Source: Caldovatus sediminis (GTDB taxonomy: Bacteria > Pseudomonadota > Alphaproteobacteria > Acetobacterales > Acetobacteraceae). From it: 64,000 nt of DNA. The notes under the pieces were generated by a model. The model had not been told where the DNA came from. It did no database searches and was given only the letters and a program-made list of their open reading frames with translations. Every line of letters begins with the position of its first letter. The first letter of the stretch is position 1. Below are positions 25,090 through 47,727 of the stretch, piece by piece. Where the stretch lies: positions 1 to 64,000 of the forward strand of contig NZ_BMKS01000018.1 of the NCBI RefSeq assembly GCF_014644455.1, in the 5' to 3' direction. The position numbers and the translations under genes were made by a program.

Positions 25090-25095
25090 GGATGG

Positions 25096-25191
25096 CGTCA
25101 TCGGGGGGAGCCCCCTTTCGGGCTGAGAGGCGGGCATGGGGCCCGCGACCCCTGGAACCTGATCCGGTTAGGACCGGCGAAGGGATCGATG
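25096..25191 (+). promoter_or_regulatory. TPP riboswitch (THI element)
   Basis: All core elements of the thiamine-pyrophosphate aptamer are present: the CTGAGA box at 25123-25128, the ACCTGAT box at 25157-25163 followed by CCGGTTAGGACCGGCG, and the terminal GAAGGGA at 25179-25185. CATCG (25099-25103) can pair with CGATG (25187-25191). That helix would include the thiZ ATG (25189-25191) and adjoin the AAGGGA ribosome-binding site. Ligand binding would therefore hide the start codon itself, making this a translational switch with no separate expression platform. It controls the thiZ-thiX-thiY operon. Confidence 0.93.
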
Positions 25192-25947
25192 GACCGCGAC
25201 CGCCCTCCTTCCTCCCCTGGCCTCTCGCTACGCGTCCCCGGCTTCGCCTTCGCCGGCGTGCCGGTGCTCGGCGGCTTCGCGCTGGAGCTGCGGGGCGGCG
25301 AGACGACGGCGCTGCTCGGCCCTTCCGGCTCGGGGAAATCCACCCTCCTGCGCATGGTCGCCGGCCTGCTGCCGGCGCCGGAGGGCACGCGCATCGCCGC
25401 CTCGGACGGCGGGCCGGTCGCCGGGCGGCTCGCCTGGATGGCGCAGCAGGACCTGCTGCTGCCCTGGCTCGACCTGATCGGCAACGTGATGCTCGGCGCG
25501 CGGCTGCGCGGCGAGGCGCCGGACCGGGCGCGCGCGCTGCGGCTGATCGAGGCCGTGGGCCTCGCGGGGCGCGAGCGCGCGCGGCCGACGGAACTCTCCG
25601 GCGGCATGCGCCAGCGCGCCGCGCTCGCGCGCACCCTGATGGAGGACCGGCCCTTCGTCCTGATGGACGAGCCCTTCAGCGCCGTGGACGCGCCGACGCG
25701 CCACCGCCTGCAGGGCCTCGCCGCGCGCCTCCTCGCCGGCCGCACCGTGCTGCTGGTCACGCACGAGCCGCTGGAGGCGATGCGCCTCGCCCACCGCGTG
25801 CTCGTCCTGCGCGGCACGCCGGCGGTGCCGGTGGAGGTCGCGGTGCCCGCCGCCACTCCGCCGCGCGAGGCGCATGACGTCGCGGTGCTGTCGGCCCAGG
25901 CCGCGCTGCTCGAGAGCCTCGCCGAGGCCACGGCGGAGGCAGCATGA
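25189..25947 (+). CDS. thiZ: Thiamine-precursor (HMP) ABC transporter ATPase ThiZ
   Basis: 252 residues of an ABC nucleotide-binding subunit: Walker A 'GPSGSGKST' at 44-52, 'LAWMAQQDLLLPWL' as Q-loop region, signature 'LSGGMRQRAALART', Walker B 'FVLMDEPFSAVDA', and His-loop 'VTHEPLEAM'. The sequence type (nitrate/taurine-like) fits, and placement directly behind a TPP riboswitch with a THI5-like receptor in the operon identifies it as ThiZ of the hydroxymethylpyrimidine uptake system. Its start codon is part of the riboswitch closing helix. It overlaps thiX by four bases. Confidence 0.88.
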   Translation: MDRDRPPSSPGLSLRVPGFAFAGVPVLGGFALELRGGETTALLGPSGSGKSTLLRMVAGLLPAPEGTRIAASDGGPVAGRLAWMAQQDLLLPWLDLIGNVMLGARLRGEAPDRARALRLIEAVGLAGRERARPTELSGGMRQRAALARTLMEDRPFVLMDEPFSAVDAPTRHRLQGLAARLLAGRTVLLVTHEPLEAMRLAHRVLVLRGTPAVPVEVAVPAATPPREAHDVAVLSAQAALLESLAEATAEAA

Positions 25948-27816: not shown

Positions 27817-28602
27817 ATGCCCGGCCGCGTGCAGGACAAGGTCGCCCTCGTCACCGGCGCCGCCTCCGGCATCGGCGCCGCCACCGCGAGGCTGCTCGCG
27901 CGGGAGGGCGCGCGCGTCGCGCTCACCGACCTCGACGCCGCGCAGGGCGAGGCGGTCGCCGCCGCGATCCGCGCCGACGGCGCCGAGGCGCTGTTCCTCG
28001 CGCACGACGTCACCGACGAGGCGGCGTGGGAGCGGGTGATCGCCGCCACCCTCGCCCGCTTCGGCCGGCTCGACGTGCTGGTCAACAACGCCGGCATCGG
28101 CGGGCCGGCGCGCCCGCCCGACGAGCAGGGCCTGGAGGACTGGCGCCGGGTGATGGCGGTCAACCTCGACGGCGTCTTCCTCGGCACCAAGCACGCGATC
28201 CGCGCCATGAAGCGCAACCGGCCGAGGCCGGGCGGCTCGATCGTGAACCTCTCCTCGATCCTCGGCCTGGTCGGCGGCACGCGGAGCGGGGCCTACACCG
28301 CCTCGAAGGGCGGCGTGCGGCTCTACACCAAGTCCGCCGCGCTGGCCTGCGCGCGCGAGGGCAACGGCGTCCGCGTCAACTCCGTCCACCCCGGCTACAT
28401 CTGGACGCCGCTCGTCGAGCACGCCTTCGCCCAGCTCGAGGACCCGGAGGAGGCGCGCCGCAGGACCGAGGCGCTGCACCCGATCGGCCGCCTCGGCGAG
28501 CCGGAGGACATCGCCTACGGCATCCTCTACCTCGCCTCCGACGAGGCGAAATTCGTCACCGGCGCCGAGCTGGTGATAGACGGCGGCTACACGGCGCAGT
28601 AG
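27817..28602 (+). CDS. SDR family oxidoreductase
   Basis: 261 residues: cofactor motif 'TGAASGIG', 'VLVNNAGIGGPARPP', catalytic Ser in 'NLSSILGLVGG' and Tyr-x-x-x-Lys in 'YTASKGG'. 'LTDLDAAQGEAVAA' after strand two indicates NAD preference. The C-terminal 'GAELVIDGGYTAQ' is typical of 3-alpha/20-beta-hydroxysteroid or cyclopentanol dehydrogenase-like SDRs; the substrate is unassigned. It follows thiY after 17 bases and could be co-transcribed, though a link to thiamine is not obvious. Its 3' flank is one copy of the interspersed repeat. Confidence 0.85.
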   Translation: MPGRVQDKVALVTGAASGIGAATARLLAREGARVALTDLDAAQGEAVAAAIRADGAEALFLAHDVTDEAAWERVIAATLARFGRLDVLVNNAGIGGPARPPDEQGLEDWRRVMAVNLDGVFLGTKHAIRAMKRNRPRPGGSIVNLSSILGLVGGTRSGAYTASKGGVRLYTKSAALACAREGNGVRVNSVHPGYIWTPLVEHAFAQLEDPEEARRRTEALHPIGRLGEPEDIAYGILYLASDEAKFVTGAELVIDGGYTAQ

Positions 28603-28606
28603 CCCG

Positions 28607-28709
28607 CCGGAGCCGTCTTCGCCCGGCTGTGCGCGCTGCAACGGCTCCCGCTCGTCGTCGGTCGAGCCGATTCACGCTCCCGGCCGTTTCCAGCCGTCCG
28701 CGATCGGCC
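28607..28709 (+). repeat. Interspersed hairpin repeat, copy 1
   Basis: About 103 bp filling the whole gap between the convergent SDR and 4-TM genes. Over its central 95 bases it differs from the inverted copy at 46.4 kb at only about eight positions. It contains a hairpin CGGCCG-TTTC-CAGCCG at 28681-28696 and long-range arms GAGCCGT (28610-28616) and ACGGCTC (28641-28647). The last bases abut the TAG stop of the 4-TM gene. The position suggests a bidirectional 3'-end element or a REP-like sequence. Confidence 0.8.
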
Positions 28710-29135
28710 CTACTCCGCCGGCATCGGCAGGACCGGCGCCGGCGCCGCCTCCGTCGCCTCCTCGCGCGTCGTCAGCGCGAGCCGCGCCAGCTTGCCGAGG
28801 AAGGTCAGCACCCCGCCGAGCCAGAGGAAGGAGGCGACGATCGCCAGCATCGGCTGCTCCTGCGCAATCGAGAGATAGATGCCGAGCGGGAAGAGCACCG
28901 CCGCCGGCGCGCTGAGCACGAAGTGCAGCCGCGCCGACCAGCCATCGCGCAGGCCGGGCCAGGCGCGGTAGGTGAGCCCGAACAGCCCGAGCGAGGCCCA
29001 GCCCACCAGGTTCGCGTGCGCGTGCACAGGCGCCAGGCTGAAATCGTGCAGGATGCCCATGGCGATGCCCATCGAGACGCCCGCCGTCAGGCAGACCGCC
29101 GCCAGGAGGAGGAACCAGATGTCGATGCGAGCCAT
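28710..29135 (-). CDS. Small 4-TM membrane protein, cytochrome oxidase subunit I-like
   Basis: 141 residues, four hydrophobic helices, starting 'MARIDIWFLLLAAVCLTAGV'. The motif 'APVHAHANLVGWASLGLFGLTYRAWPGL', with two His residues in the second helix, occurs in a family of short proteins resembling a fragment of cbb3-type cytochrome oxidase subunit I or NnrS; these His could bind haem. The function is not established. A GAGAGA site precedes the start. The last 25 residues are charged and Pro-rich. Upstream is a kilobase without a clear gene, so it is probably monocistronic. Confidence 0.7.
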   Translation of the reverse strand: MARIDIWFLLLAAVCLTAGVSMGIAMGILHDFSLAPVHAHANLVGWASLGLFGLTYRAWPGLRDGWSARLHFVLSAPAAVLFPLGIYLSIAQEQPMLAIVASFLWLGGVLTFLGKLARLALTTREEATEAAPAPVLPMPAE

Positions 29136-32907: not shown

Positions 32908-33870
32908 ATGCTGATCCGCATCCGGCGAGGATGGGAGATCCCCGAAAGCCGCGTCACGCCGGAGGCGATCGCGACCAACCGGCGCGCCGTCCTCGGCCTC
33001 GCCGCCGCCGGCCTCGCCGCCGCCCCGCCGGCGCTCGGCCAGACGCGGGACGCGGGCGCCCCGGCAGAGGGCTCGCCCCTGCCGCCCGCGATGCGCAACC
33101 CGCGCTACCGCGTCGAGCGCGCGATCACGCCGGAGCACGAGGCCACCACCTTCAACAACTACTACGAGTTCGGCAGCCACAAGAGCATCTACAGGGCCGC
33201 CCAGCGCCTGCCGATGCGCCCCTGGACCGTGAAGGTCGAGGGCATGGTCGAGCAGCCGCGCGAGTTCGGCATTGACGACCTGATCGCCGCCATGCCGATC
33301 GAGGAGCGGGTCTACCGCCTGCGCTGCGTCGAGGCCTGGTCCATGGTCGTCCCGTGGACCGGATTCCGGCTCTCCGCCCTGCTCGACCGCGTCCGCCCGC
33401 TGTCCTCCGCCCGCTACGTGCGGTTCGAGACCGCGGCGGTCCCGGAGGTGATGCCGGGCCTGCGCCAGAGCTGGTATCCCTGGCCCTACATCGAGGGATG
33501 CACCATCGAGGAGGCGGCGAACGAGCTCGCCTTCCTGGTCGTCGGCGCCTACGGCAGGCCGCTGCCGCCGCAGAACGGCGGGCCGCTGCGCGTGCACTTC
33601 CCGTGGAAGTACGGCTTCAAGTCGGGCAAGTCGCTGGTGCGCATCACCCTGACCGACCGGCGCCCGAAGAGCTTCTGGGAGACCGTCCAGGGCAACGAGT
33701 ACGGCTTCTGGGCCAACGTGAACCCGGAGGTGCCGCACCCGCGCTGGAGCCAGGCGACCGAGCGGGTCCTCGGCACCGGCGAGCGCATCCCGACGCGGAT
33801 CTTCAACGGCTACGGCGAGTTCGTCGCGCACCTCTACGTCAACCTGCAGAATGAACGCCTCTGGGCGTAG
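32908..33870 (+). CDS. msrP: Protein-methionine-sulfoxide reductase catalytic subunit MsrP (YedY)
   Basis: 320 residues, periplasmic molybdoenzyme that repairs oxidised methionines in exported proteins. A Tat signal ('NRRAVLGLAAAGLAAAPPAL', residues 24-43) is preceded by a short N-terminal arm typical of YedY. Cys140 in 'YRLRCVEAWSMVVPWTGF' is the expected molybdenum ligand, and the C-terminal 'EYGFWANVNPEVPHPRWSQA' is diagnostic. Length is normal. The usual haem-containing electron donor MsrQ does not follow; instead a 110-residue membrane protein overlaps its end by 20 bases. Confidence 0.92.
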   Translation: MLIRIRRGWEIPESRVTPEAIATNRRAVLGLAAAGLAAAPPALGQTRDAGAPAEGSPLPPAMRNPRYRVERAITPEHEATTFNNYYEFGSHKSIYRAAQRLPMRPWTVKVEGMVEQPREFGIDDLIAAMPIEERVYRLRCVEAWSMVVPWTGFRLSALLDRVRPLSSARYVRFETAAVPEVMPGLRQSWYPWPYIEGCTIEEAANELAFLVVGAYGRPLPPQNGGPLRVHFPWKYGFKSGKSLVRITLTDRRPKSFWETVQGNEYGFWANVNPEVPHPRWSQATERVLGTGERIPTRIFNGYGEFVAHLYVNLQNERLWA

Positions 33871-34183
33871 CGCGCGGCGGCCGGGCGGAGCGGCAGGCAC
33901 GGCGGCGATCGCGCTCGGCATCGCGTTCCTGCTGCTCGCGGTGCTGCCCGCCGGCCTGCTCGGGCCGTCGGCGCCGCTCGGCGAGGCGATCTATCGCCTC
34001 CACCCGCCCTTCCTGAACACGTTCCAGGCCGGGGTGCAGCGCCACCTCGCGCCCTGGCTGTGGGACGACGTCCTGCTGCCGGTCCTGCTGCTGCCGGGCT
34101 GGCTGCCGTTCGCCGCGATCGGCCTCCTGCTGGTCGCGCTCGGCGGCGCGCGCCGCCGCCAGCGCCGCGCCGCCGCCCGCTGA
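33851..34183 (+). CDS. Small two-helix membrane protein downstream of MsrP
   Basis: 110 residues, overlapping msrP by 20 bases. Two hydrophobic helices (about 16-36 and 74-96) flank a polar segment 'PLGEAIYRLHPPFLNTFQAG', and the C-terminus is Arg-rich, so both ends are probably cytoplasmic. I do not recognise the family. It is too short to be MsrQ (about 200 residues, six helices), but it holds two His in the loop (in 'RLHPPF' and 'VQRHLAPW') and takes MsrQ's genomic place. A role in anchoring or electron delivery to MsrP is conjecture. Confidence 0.65.
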   Translation: MNASGRSARRPGGAAGTAAIALGIAFLLLAVLPAGLLGPSAPLGEAIYRLHPPFLNTFQAGVQRHLAPWLWDDVLLPVLLLPGWLPFAAIGLLLVALGGARRRQRRAAAR

Positions 34184-34190
34184 ACCCGCG

Positions 34191-34276
34191 CGCCGGAGCC
34201 GTCTTCGCCCGGCCGCGCTCGCCGCGACGGCGCCTCCGGTTGCCTGCCCGGCCGCTTCCGGCCGACCGCATCGGCC
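34191..34276 (+). repeat. Interspersed hairpin repeat, copy 2 (shortened)
   Basis: Shares both ends with the 28.6-kb copy (GGAGCCGTCTTCGCCCGGC at the left; ATCGGCCCTAC running into the next stop at the right) but lacks about 17 internal bases and is more diverged. The hairpin is retained as CGGCCG-CTTC-CGGCCG (34249-34264), perfectly paired through changes on both arms relative to the other copies. It fills the gap between two convergent genes. Confidence 0.65.
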
Positions 34277-35263
34277 CTACGCGCCCGCCAGCTCCGGCAC
34301 GATCCAGAGCGGCTTCTCGCCCCGCGCCACGCGCTGGCAGTTGTCGAAGGCGTTGCGGAAGCGCGCGACCTGGTTGTCCCAGGTCGGCCCGGCGTAGTGC
34401 GGCGTCAGCACCACGTTGTCGAGGCCGAACAGCGGGTTGTCCGCCGGCGGCGGCTCCTGGTCGAAGACGTCGAGGCCGGCGCCGGCGATCCTCCCCTCGC
34501 GCAGCGCCTCGCAGAGCGCCGCCTCGTCCACCACCGGCCCGCGGCAGGTGTTGACGAGGTAGGCGCTCGGCTTCATCCGCGCGAGCTCCGCCGCGCCGAT
34601 CATGTGCCGCGTCGCCGGCGTCAGCGGCACGTGCAGCGAGACGATGTCCGACGCCCCGAGCAGCTCGCCGAGCAGGCGGAAGCGCACGCCGAGCGCGTCC
34701 TCCGCGTCCTCCGGCAGCCGCACGATGTCGTGGTAGAGGACGCCCATGCCGAAGGCGTTGGCGAGCCGCGCCACCTTCTTCCCGATCGTGCCGAGCCCGA
34801 CGATGCCGAGCGTCCTGCCCCGCAGCTCGTAGAGCCTGACCTGCGAGGGGTCGTTGCCGCGCCAGCGGCCGGCGACGACGTTCTGGTGCTGCCAGACCAG
34901 GCGGCGGCAGACCGCGAGCATCAGCATCAGCGCGTGCTCGGCGACGGCGGTCGCGTTCGCCCCGCCGTTGTTGCAGATCGGCACCCCGGCGCGCCGCGCC
35001 GCCTCGAGGTCGCAGGTGTCGTAGCCGGCGCTGAGGAGCTGGACCAGGCGGAGCTTCGGCGCGGCGCGGAAGAAGGCGTCGTCCATCGCCGGGCTGCCGA
35101 AGCCGACGAGGTATTCGGCCTCCCGCATCGCCTCGGCGAACTCCGGCGTGCCGAACCGCGCCACCACCATCTCGAACCCGGGCGGCGCCAGTTCGCGCGC
35201 CACCTCCATGGCGCTGAGCGGGCTGTCCATCACCACCATGCGCGGCCGGCGCTGCGTCGCCAT
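34277..35263 (-). CDS. D-2-hydroxyacid dehydrogenase
   Basis: 328 residues. Rossmann motif 'GIVGLGTIGKKVARLANAFG', the catalytic Arg region 'VNTCRGPVVDEAALCEAL', Glu in 'GAGLDVFDQEPPP' and catalytic His in 'LTPHYAGPTWDN' define the family, which interconverts 2-oxo acids and D-2-hydroxy acids with NAD(P)H. It is the last gene of a minus-strand group with the aldo-keto reductase and the monooxygenase (71 bases to the former). The stop codon lies at the edge of the interspersed repeat. Substrate is not predicted; glyoxylate/phosphoglycerate-type activity is possible. Confidence 0.88.
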   Translation of the reverse strand: MATQRRPRMVVMDSPLSAMEVARELAPPGFEMVVARFGTPEFAEAMREAEYLVGFGSPAMDDAFFRAAPKLRLVQLLSAGYDTCDLEAARRAGVPICNNGGANATAVAEHALMLMLAVCRRLVWQHQNVVAGRWRGNDPSQVRLYELRGRTLGIVGLGTIGKKVARLANAFGMGVLYHDIVRLPEDAEDALGVRFRLLGELLGASDIVSLHVPLTPATRHMIGAAELARMKPSAYLVNTCRGPVVDEAALCEALREGRIAGAGLDVFDQEPPPADNPLFGLDNVVLTPHYAGPTWDNQVARFRNAFDNCQRVARGEKPLWIVPELAGA

Positions 35264-39869: not shown

Positions 39870-39946
39870 TGGTAGCGGCGGGCAGACTTGAACTGCCGAC
39901 CCCGGCATTATGAGTGCCGTGCTCTAACCAGCTGAGCTACGCCGCC
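39870..39946 (-). tRNA. tRNA-Met (anticodon CAT)
   Basis: 77 nt with encoded CCA. The acceptor stem GGCGGCG pairs with CGCCGCU (first pair a G-U wobble). The D arm contains AGCUCAGCUGGUUAGAGC, the anticodon loop is CUCAUAA between CGGCA and UGCCG, and the T arm carries GUUCAAGUC. The first pair argues against the initiator, which has an unpaired first position; a lysidine-modified tRNA-Ile(CAU) cannot be fully excluded by eye. It is the probable attachment site of the adjacent integrase. Confidence 0.93.
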
Positions 39947-45723: not shown

Positions 45724-46392
45724 ATGCCAGAAGTGATGTTCGCCGGACCAGACGGCCGGCTCGAGGGCCGCTATCACCACGCCAAGCAGCCCAACGCGCC
45801 GGTAGCGCTCGTCCTGCACCCGCACCCGCTGCACGGCGGGACGATGAACAACCGCGTGGTGCATGCGCTGTTCGAGCGCTTCCGCGACATGGGCTTCTCG
45901 GTGCTGCGCTTCAATTTCCGCGGCGTCGGCCGCAGCCAGGGGCGCTACGACGGCGGCATCGGCGAGATCTCGGACGCCGCCGCCGCGCTCGACTTCCTGC
46001 AGGCGGTCAACCCGAGCGCCTCCGCGCTCTGGGTCGCCGGCTACTCCTTCGGCGCCTATGTCGGCATGCAGCTCCTGATGCGCCGGCCGGAGATGGGCGG
46101 CTTCGTCTCGGTCAGCCTGCCCGCCTCGCACTACGATTTCGGCTTCCTCGCCCCCTGCCCCTGCAACGGCCTCGTCGTGCATGGCGCCGAGGACGAGCTG
46201 GTGCCGGAGGGCAGCGTGCGGAAGCTGGTCGAGAAGCTGAACACGCAGAAGGGCATCAGGCTCGACTACCGCGTGCTGCCGGGCGCCGGCCACGTCTTCA
46301 CGCCGGAGCAGACCGCGAAGGTCGTGGACATGGCGGAGGACCACGTGCGGGCCGCGCTGAACCGCAGCCGCATGCCGCTCGCCGCCGACTGA
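45724..46392 (+). CDS. Alpha/beta hydrolase
   Basis: 222 residues. 'LVLHPHPLHGGTMNNRVVHA' is the oxyanion-hole region, 'VLRFNFRGVGRSQG' precedes the nucleophile elbow, which reads G-Y-S-F-G ('VAGYSFGAYVGMQLL'), and 'VVHGAEDELVPEG' with 'GAGHVFT' supply the Asp and His of the triad. The group (often annotated as alpha/beta hydrolase or dienelactone hydrolase-like) is common in alphaproteobacteria and has no settled substrate. The frame opens further upstream, but MPEVMFAGPDG is the conserved start. Its 3' flank is a copy of the interspersed repeat. Confidence 0.85.
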   Translation: MPEVMFAGPDGRLEGRYHHAKQPNAPVALVLHPHPLHGGTMNNRVVHALFERFRDMGFSVLRFNFRGVGRSQGRYDGGIGEISDAAAALDFLQAVNPSASALWVAGYSFGAYVGMQLLMRRPEMGGFVSVSLPASHYDFGFLAPCPCNGLVVHGAEDELVPEGSVRKLVEKLNTQKGIRLDYRVLPGAGHVFTPEQTAKVVDMAEDHVRAALNRSRMPLAAD

Positions 46393-46394
46393 GA

Positions 46395-46496
46395 GCAGAT
46401 CGCGCACGGCTGGAAACAGCCGGGAGCGTGAATCGGCTCGGCCAACGACGAGCGGGAGCCGTTGCAGCGAGCACGGCCGAGCGAAAACGGCTCGAG
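46395..46496 (-). repeat. Interspersed hairpin repeat, copy 3 (inverted)
   Basis: The reverse complement matches the 28.6-kb copy over about 95 bases with roughly eight differences. The hairpin CGGCTG-GAAA-CAGCCG lies at 46407-46422 with a GNRA-type tetraloop. Arms GAGCCGTT (46456-46463) and AACGGCTC (46486-46493) form an outer inverted repeat. It starts three bases after the hydrolase stop and precedes the convergent anmK gene. Confidence 0.8.
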
Positions 46497-46644: not shown

Positions 46645-47727
46645 TCAGCGCCCCGGCGGCGGCTGGATCCGTCCGCCCGGCAGGGGCCGCGGCGCGCCGG
46701 TCGTCCCCGGGAAGGTGAGCGGCAGCCCGCGCGCCACGCGCGCCGCCAGCACGCCGAAGGCCTGCGCCTCCAGCGCGTCCCCGTCCCAGCCCGCGACCTC
46801 CACCGGCCGCACCGGCTCCGCCAGCGCGCCGGCGAGCGCCCGCATCAGGGCCGGGTTGCGCCGCCCGCCGCCCGTCACCAGCCACTGCCGCGGCGGCGCC
46901 GGGAGGTGCCGCGCCGCGGCGGCGACGCAGACGGCGCAGAACGCCACCAGCGTCGCGGCGCCGTCCTCGGCGGAGAGATGCTCGATGCCCGCCGCCCCCA
47001 GTGCGCGGTGGAAGTCCAGACGGTCGAGGCTCTTGGGCGGCGGCGCGGCGAGATAGGGGTGGCCAAGCAGCCGCGCCAGCACCGCTCCGTCCGGCCGGCC
47101 CGCGGCGGCCAGCGCCCCGTCGCGGTCGAAGGGTCGCCCGGCGCGCCGCTGCGCCCAGTCGTCGAGCGGACCGTTCGCCGGCCCGGTGTCGAAGGCGAGC
47201 AGCGCCCCGTCCTCGCCGATCCAGGTGACGTTGGCGACGCCGCCGAGGTTCAGCACCGCCAGCGGCTTCGGCAGCGCCTCGGCCAGCGCCGCGTGCACCA
47301 CCGGCACGAGCGGCGCCCCCTGCCCGCCCGCCGCGACGTCCGCCGAGCGGAAGTCGAACGCGACCGGCATGCCGGTCAGCCGCGCCAGCAGGGCCGCGTC
47401 GCCGATCTGCCAGGTCCGCCGCTCCGCCGGGCGATGGAGGATGGTCTGCCCGTGGAACCCGATCAGGTCCGCCGGCTCGCCCAGCGCCGCCACCGCCTCC
47501 GCGTGGCGCTCGGTCAGGCGCCGCACGCAGTCGGCCAGTTCCGGCTCGTCGCCGCCGAGCCCGGGCGCCGCGTCGAGCAGCGCGCGCAGGTCGCGCCGCA
47601 GCGCCGGGTCGTAGGGCAGCGTCAGGCGCGGGCCGAGGCGGCCGATGCGCTCCCCGTCCGTTTCCACCCAGGCGGCGTCCACCCCGTCGAGCGAGGTGCC
47701 GCTCATCAGCCCGATGGTTCTCAGCAT
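46645..47727 (-). CDS. anmK: Anhydro-N-acetylmuramic acid kinase
   Basis: 360 residues. The N-terminal phosphate-binding motif '[12 protein letters not shown]' (8-19), '[16 protein letters not shown]', '[20 protein letters not shown]', '[13 protein letters not shown]' and '[17 protein letters not shown]' are all AnmK signatures. The enzyme cleaves and phosphorylates 1,6-anhydro-MurNAc to MurNAc-6-phosphate in cell-wall recycling. It is divergent from tyrS with a 57-bp gap, a common neighbour pair in proteobacteria. Confidence 0.95.

Follow-up and report, generated by a model that had tools for sequence, protein, structure and literature searches.

CIR repeats of Alphaproteobacteria are about 110 bp long, consist of two arms and a linker, contain GANTC and have TA termini (Chen and Shapiro, 2003, as summarized in PMC2229807). 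How repeats of this type move is not known according to the same account. A precedent for a repeat moved by an IS630-type insertion sequence (IS) is RUP of Streptococcus pneumoniae, which is 107 bp long and goes along with IS630-Spn1 (PMC2229807, PMC3049150). MITEPsy1 of Pseudomonas syringae (100 bp) is possibly derived from an IS5-type element and duplicates CTAG or YTAA (PMC3189936). REPs and BIMEs, which are accompanied by a RAYT transposase, carry the tetranucleotide tag GTAG or CGTC before a hairpin; GTAG REPs also supply TAG stops for ORFs and favor convergent and unidirectional gaps (PMC3733652).

The element studied here is, when intact, a unit of 107 bp that extends from CTAG to CTAG (consensus CTAGAGCCGTTTTCGCTCGGCTGTGCTCGCTGCAACGGCTCTCGCTCGTTGTCTGCCGAGCCGATTCACGCTCCCGGCTGTTTCCAGCCGTCCGCGATCGGCTCTAG). 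As far as the CIR repeats of Caulobacter and Brucella are described in PMC2229807, it resembles them in its length, its two hairpin arms with a linker, a GANTC site in one arm, its 5'-TA-3' termini, its intergenic and multicopy occurrence and its alphaproteobacterial hosts. In contrast to that description, which places GANTC in the loop, the home genome has it at the base of arm 2; in Belnapia and others it is found in the loop. Furthermore, CIRs are said there to carry stops in all six frames, while by our own reading at least one frame of the element consensus contains no stop. Since the comparison with CIR1-4 was made by description only, we call the element CIR-like. With RUP it shares size, copy number, intergenic position, a TA target, a resemblance to the ends of an IS630-family IS (here at the left end) and an excess of convergent locations (PMC2229807, PMC3049150). 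However, RUP folds end to end as a single unit, whereas the element comprises two separate hairpins and a CTAG border that is used for stops. MITEPsy1 is similar in its length of about 100 bp and its duplicated target, yet it possesses 18-bp inverted repeats similar to those of ISPsy2, and no two-hairpin build is reported for it (PMC3189936). The tag before a hairpin, the supply of TAG stops and the gene context recall REPs and BIMEs (PMC3733652), while the element differs from these in its tag, CTAG, in being a non-modular unit of 107 bp and in lacking a Y1 transposase.

The element is real, abundant, formerly mobile and non-coding, and new evidence was obtained on its target, its use for stop codons and its probable mover. 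Taken as a whole, we consider it probable that we are dealing with a CIR-like, non-autonomous MITE of IS630 type that targets CTAG and whose convergent bias would mostly reflect target choice and the purging of harmful insertions.

Copies, gene context and distribution

The window, i.e., the whole stretch of 64,000 nucleotides of Caldovatus sediminis DNA that was analyzed, contains all three copies named in the initial annotation (Table 1), and copies 1 and 2 are 91% identical over 99 bases. Copy 1 is bordered by CCGG, a decayed CTAG, on its left and by CTAC on its right, and the right end of copy 2 reads CTCA and overlaps the TGA stop (46390-46392) of the hydrolase gene. For copy 3 the covariance model gave a weak partial match only, at 34193, while a profile HMM recovered 34196-34279. 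Gene calls place all three copies in convergent gaps, just as had been claimed. The claim that two copies supply the last bases before the TAG stop of a minus-strand gene needs one correction: copies 1 and 3 include the TAG itself in their right ends and not just the bases preceding it. An Rfam scan of the window revealed no family matching the element; the sole matches were a TPP riboswitch (25094-25203, + strand, RF00059, 65 bits) and a tRNA gene (39873-39946, - strand, RF00005).

Table 1. Element copies in the window, their parts and the adjoining genes.
Feature	Position	Strand	Evidence or remark
Element copy 1, full length	28607..28713	+	80 bits with cmsearch model R2
Hairpin 1 of copy 1	28610..28647	+	covariation-supported structure (alignment A2), placed by model alignment
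Linker of copy 1, between the hairpins	28648..28663	+	TTGTT-type motif conserved there in relatives (alignment A2)
Hairpin 2 of copy 1	28664..28710	+	covariation structure (A2) and model alignment
GATTC, a GANTC (CcrM-type) site, in copy 1	28669..28673	+	
TAG stop of minus-strand gene, made by right end of copy 1	28710..28712	-	sequence and gene calls
Short-chain dehydrogenase (SDR) gene left of copy 1	27817..28602	+	Pfam PF13561, 1.7e-67; stop TAG 28600-28602
Gene right of copy 1, without Pfam family	28710..29135	-	gene call and Pfam search
Element copy 2, inverted	46390..46496	-	95 bits with cmsearch R2
GANTC site in copy 2	46430..46434	-	
Alpha/beta hydrolase gene left of copy 2	45736..46392	+	Pfam PF12146
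anmK-like gene right of copy 2	46645..47727	-	Pfam PF03702, 2.8e-82
Element copy 3, eroded and shortened	34191..34279	+	nhmmer 18 bits at 34196-34279; partial BLAST match
TAG stop of 2-hydroxyacid dehydrogenase gene, in right end of copy 3	34277..34279	-	
Small gene left of copy 3, without Pfam family	33851..34183	+	stop TGA 34181-34183
2-hydroxyacid dehydrogenase gene right of copy 3	34277..35263	-	Pfam PF02826, 2.4e-67

The home genome (4.8 Mb in 43 contigs, 98.6% complete) delivered at least 41 matches to copy 1 in a first sequence search. Pattern searches across its 4.8 Mb found 66 right and 58 left halves, while reversed-pattern controls gave none, and this abundance is far beyond chance. 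The genome-wide search for further copies that the initial annotation had suggested was run as a profile HMM on the regions fetched around the pattern matches and yielded at least 81 copies. Some elements are stacked end to end in twos or threes in the home genome and in its sister G001 (L009:3919-4102, L151:1760-2106, L160, L170, L172). A long autonomous version was also sought in the home genome: left-end matches that lacked a listed right end were diverged whole elements where recognizable, and none was seen flanking a transposase.

Of the 74 copies that have called genes as neighbors on either side, 54 are convergent (73%), 17 tandem and 3 divergent. The corresponding numbers for 228 control gaps in 13 stretches (260 kb) are 27 (12%), 174 and 27, giving a convergent excess of p ~6e-23 (Fisher); the main weakness of these context statistics is that the genes came from a purpose-written codon-usage caller and not from standard annotation. 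Thus, the statement that the repeat occurs only between convergent genes holds inside the window and is too strong for the genome, yet the bias is large.

Beyond the home genome, model R2 matches the unit in at least 88 of 150 Acetobacteraceae genomes; a scan of 289 members of the class added at least 16 genomes from other alphaproteobacterial families. Both counts are lower bounds owing to strict filters. Carriers recognized by pattern scan include Neoroseomonas, Belnapia, Siccirubricoccus, Roseomonas and Paracraurococcus and, outside the family, Xanthobacter; a pattern scan of the contig collection with the home consensus gave no match. On 200 kb of Sinorhizobium meliloti pSymB, model R2 found no match worth keeping. 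RIME elements, which Osteras and co-workers reportedly described from Rhizobium in 1995, are said to be about 108 bp long, to consist of two large palindromes and to lie between genes in Alphaproteobacteria. Literature searches on RIME1, on IS1182 with CTAG and on MITEs of Acetobacteraceae returned nothing usable.

Two hairpins and a GANTC site

The hairpin nature proposed at the outset is not evident if a single window copy is folded: compared with shuffled sequences, z was 0.04 and -0.9 on the + strand and -3.3 on the - strand. Home copies alone show almost no covariation in the consensus structure either, and the signal appears only across genera, where it is strong. In alignment A2 (32 sequences from nine genomes and eight genera) the two-hairpin structure comprises 84 changes on both sides of a pair against 23.8 in shuffles (reached in 0 of 500) and at most 22 in slid controls; the excess over shuffles may partly reflect relatedness, which the slid controls retain. 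Both hairpins are kept by compensatory changes while the sequences diverge across genera. Copies from Belnapia (G038) and from G047 fold by themselves at z of about -10 and -9, respectively.

The unit measures 106-108 bp in most copies across genera, while a few variants reach 137-140 bp. Such variants (L203, L205, L217) form two very long hairpins with CTAG-like ends and stem from other alphaproteobacterial families. GANTC is present in 41 of 63 good home copies, where 0.08 sites would be expected per 107 bp, and in most relatives as well. Its place varies: the home genus has the site at the base of arm 2 (position 63), and copies of G038, G308, G210 and G242 have it in an arm loop.

CTAG target, stop codons and convergent bias

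The terminal TAG of the element serves as stop codon of an adjoining gene in 58 of the 81 copies, and in 7 of these both ends serve. Where an end is used as a stop, TAG/CTA is retained (left 23/25, right 37/40), while at unused ends it is mostly lost (retained left 10/56, right 18/41), a comparison that is partly circular because use as a stop requires TAG. Standard annotation points in the same direction in two cases outside the home genome: on a plasmid of Rhodovastum atsumiense a D-aminoacylase gene ends on the right-hand CTA of an element, and the ccoP gene of Rhizobium sp. NLR16a does so on the right-border CTA of a similar element (position counted by eye).

CTAG itself is rare. In 557 kb of sampled DNA from this 75% GC genome, 155 CTAGs were observed against 1213 expected from base composition. 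Elements account for 59 of the 155, and the remaining 96 comprise 22 stop codons and 53 intergenic sites; these shares are not genome-wide figures, because the sampled DNA was picked around elements. Since CTAG is palindromic, one CTAG can end two convergent genes, and duplications of 2 bp (TA) and of 4 bp cannot be told apart.

CTAG is found at both ends of intact copies and also at empty sites, with exceptions. At L029 the sister G002 has no element and a single CTAG that is common to the stops of two convergent genes (read by hand); in the home genome an element with CTAG on both sides occupies the gap and both genes end on it. At L037, G002 shows CTAG at the same stop without a recognizable element, and the downstream bases continue like the home sequence past the element. 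At L060, G002 has a CTAG and likewise no recognizable element. At L013 both sisters, G001 and G002, lack the element and carry GTAG at that stop codon. The protein ends are unchanged in these clean cases, and thus the element went to existing stops and did not truncate genes. Two other sites are less clean: at L017 the corresponding codon of G001 is TGA, and L034 shows no recognizable word of this kind. Hence the word present before insertion was not always CTAG.

Mobility is evident from the relative G346, too. Unrelated loci of its genome hold about 20 near-identical copies, almost every one of them bordered by CTAG on either side, and such young copies imply a mobile unit. The convergent gap L053 carries an element in opposite orientation in sister G001 (L111, G001:C96:103300-104100), which requires either two insertions or an inversion. 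The orthologous gap of a third species holds a different sequence. The early suggestion of a small mobile palindromic element is supported by the empty sites, by dispersed copies that are nearly identical and by the exact boundaries at CTAG.

We envision that the element would be mobilized in trans by an IS630/Tc1-mariner-type transposase inserting at the TA of 5'-CTAG-3'. With CTAG so scarce, and TAG stops making up about a fifth of those CTAGs of the sampled DNA that lie outside elements, insertions would be steered to stops. An insertion at CTAG would leave CTAG at each end, so that both proteins would keep their ends and the unit would become the whole intergenic gap. Insertions elsewhere would be lost or decay, while ends serving as stops would be kept by coding selection. 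If so, a mobile element can be directed to stop codons by a target word seldom found in GC-rich genomes, and convergent gene pairs would thereby gain a spacer with neither protein altered.

Target choice alone does not explain the convergent bias, however: stops on element CTAGs are convergent rather than tandem at 36:4, while free CTAG stops show 12:28 (p ~5e-8). Among the nine G346 copies with classifiable context 3 are convergent, 4 tandem and 2 divergent, so that the bias of these young copies is weaker than that of the older home copies (p = 0.024, from a small sample and the same gene caller). From both comparisons we infer that insertions between co-directional genes were purged. The same pattern would result if the element had a positive function between convergent genes. 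The preference for convergent ends assumed early on is hence real as a bias, but it is not absolute and requires no active preference.

Such a function could consist in a bidirectional transcript end: with hairpins that terminate or protect the two transcripts running toward each other, the element would be retained between convergent genes by selection. The surplus over free CTAG stops fits this explanation, as do the compensatory changes that preserve the hairpins across genera and, in relatives, a T-rich linker such as CTCTTTGTTTTGG after hairpin 1, which is like an intrinsic terminator for one direction. However, the linker of the home genome retains little of its T run, shuffled sequences fold as well as the window copy on the + strand, and no T tract follows the hairpin of the opposite direction. 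Moreover, orthologous gaps of sister species manage without the element, young G346 copies are convergent in 3 of 9 cases (small numbers), and the same bias in pneumococcal repeats has been ascribed to tolerance (PMC3049150). We regard selection for a two-way transcript end as rather unlikely, while transcription termination as a side effect of the element is possible. For annotation this is a warning, since a hairpin in a convergent gap may represent an element of this kind and not an evolved terminator.

Candidate movers

An IS630-type transposase is the most likely mover, and we hold this assignment for fairly probable. The title of Tenzen and Ohtsubo (1991), cited in PMC2170065, gives the target preference of IS630 as the TA in CTAG. 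IS630-family ISs of element-rich relatives start with CTAGAGCGGTTTyC, like the left end of the element, and the left ends of the elements in Belnapia and G047 match such IS ends at a maximum of 11 of the 12 positions that follow CTAG. Four IS630-family copies of about 1.04-1.05 kb, for which both ends were found, begin and end with CTAGAGCGGTTTTC, CTAGAGCGGTTTCC or CTAGAGCATTTTCA; several further copies show one such end and several others have different ends. Copies with CTAGAGCGGTTTTC or CTAGAGCGGTTTCC ends occur in Belnapia (G038), G423 and G026. The right end of the element, in contrast, has (CTA)GAGC alone in common with the IS630 ends, and the two ends thus do not match each other as inverted repeats of an IS630 would. 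Of 7 element-rich genomes tested, 6 contain the transposase family itself (PF13358), while none was found in the home genome, where the roughly 80 copies therefore look like an orphaned, decaying set. Filled and empty sites, the CTAG border and matching IS630 ends together offer a specific and testable answer to the question of how CIR repeats move.

Alternatively, the mover might be a different DDE transposase that duplicates the 4 bp CTAG (for instance of IS5 type) or the IS1182-like ISs that repeatedly adjoin the left CTAG of the element. MITEPsy1, with its duplicated CTAG or YTAA, lends some weight to the former, whereas the ends of the IS1182-like ISs (CAGCGTGTCGGATTGG, GCGGCCTGTCGGATTCCC) are unlike those of the element. 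Altogether we consider these candidates unlikely. A much broader view would see an element that, throughout the class, docks on shared CTAG stops, supplies both stops and a two-way transcript end and is selected as the standard convergent spacer, with CIRs as a whole being IS630-driven and stop-codon-targeting; this strikes us as quite doubtful.

The REP-like origin entertained in the initial annotation, with a Y1 (RAYT) transposase and CTAG in place of GTAG, is highly improbable: with CTAG ahead of each of its two inverted hairpins, on the respective strand, the element does recall a REP doublet, and GTAG REPs supply stops in similar gaps, but whole 107-bp pairs occur instead of single REPs, and the Y1_Tnp domain (PF01797), searched for in the home genome and 41 relatives, was absent from the home genome, from 12 Acetobacteraceae relatives matching the home model and from 13 of 15 carriers of other families. 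It was detected in the remaining 2 of those 15 and once in the set of 26 Acetobacteraceae, namely in G035, which carries elements according to R2. Since Y1 is absent from most carriers, a RAYT is not required.

The IS1182-like ISs sit against the left-hand CTAG as though they used the element for landing, at L043:2141-4003, L039:1-62, L042, L058 and L063 as well as at the G346 loci L270-L272, L274-L276, L278-L279, L281 and L285-L286. Their ends read CGGCCTGTCGGATTCCC or GTGTCGGATTGG, and from the start of the transposase, MSNFVPFNRDQSFLLPPD, we take them to belong to the IS1182 family. Many draft contigs of G346 (C62, C72, C83, C91 and others) end a fixed 88-89 bases past an element, inside the neighboring IS; these assembly breaks mark IS insertion beside elements. 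In addition, the G346 flanks L277, L280, L270 and L289 display a further short hairpin repeat, GCGATTCACGCCCTCCGACGATTCCGCCTCGGGCGATCGCGG, which lies beside several elements and also ends at CTAG.
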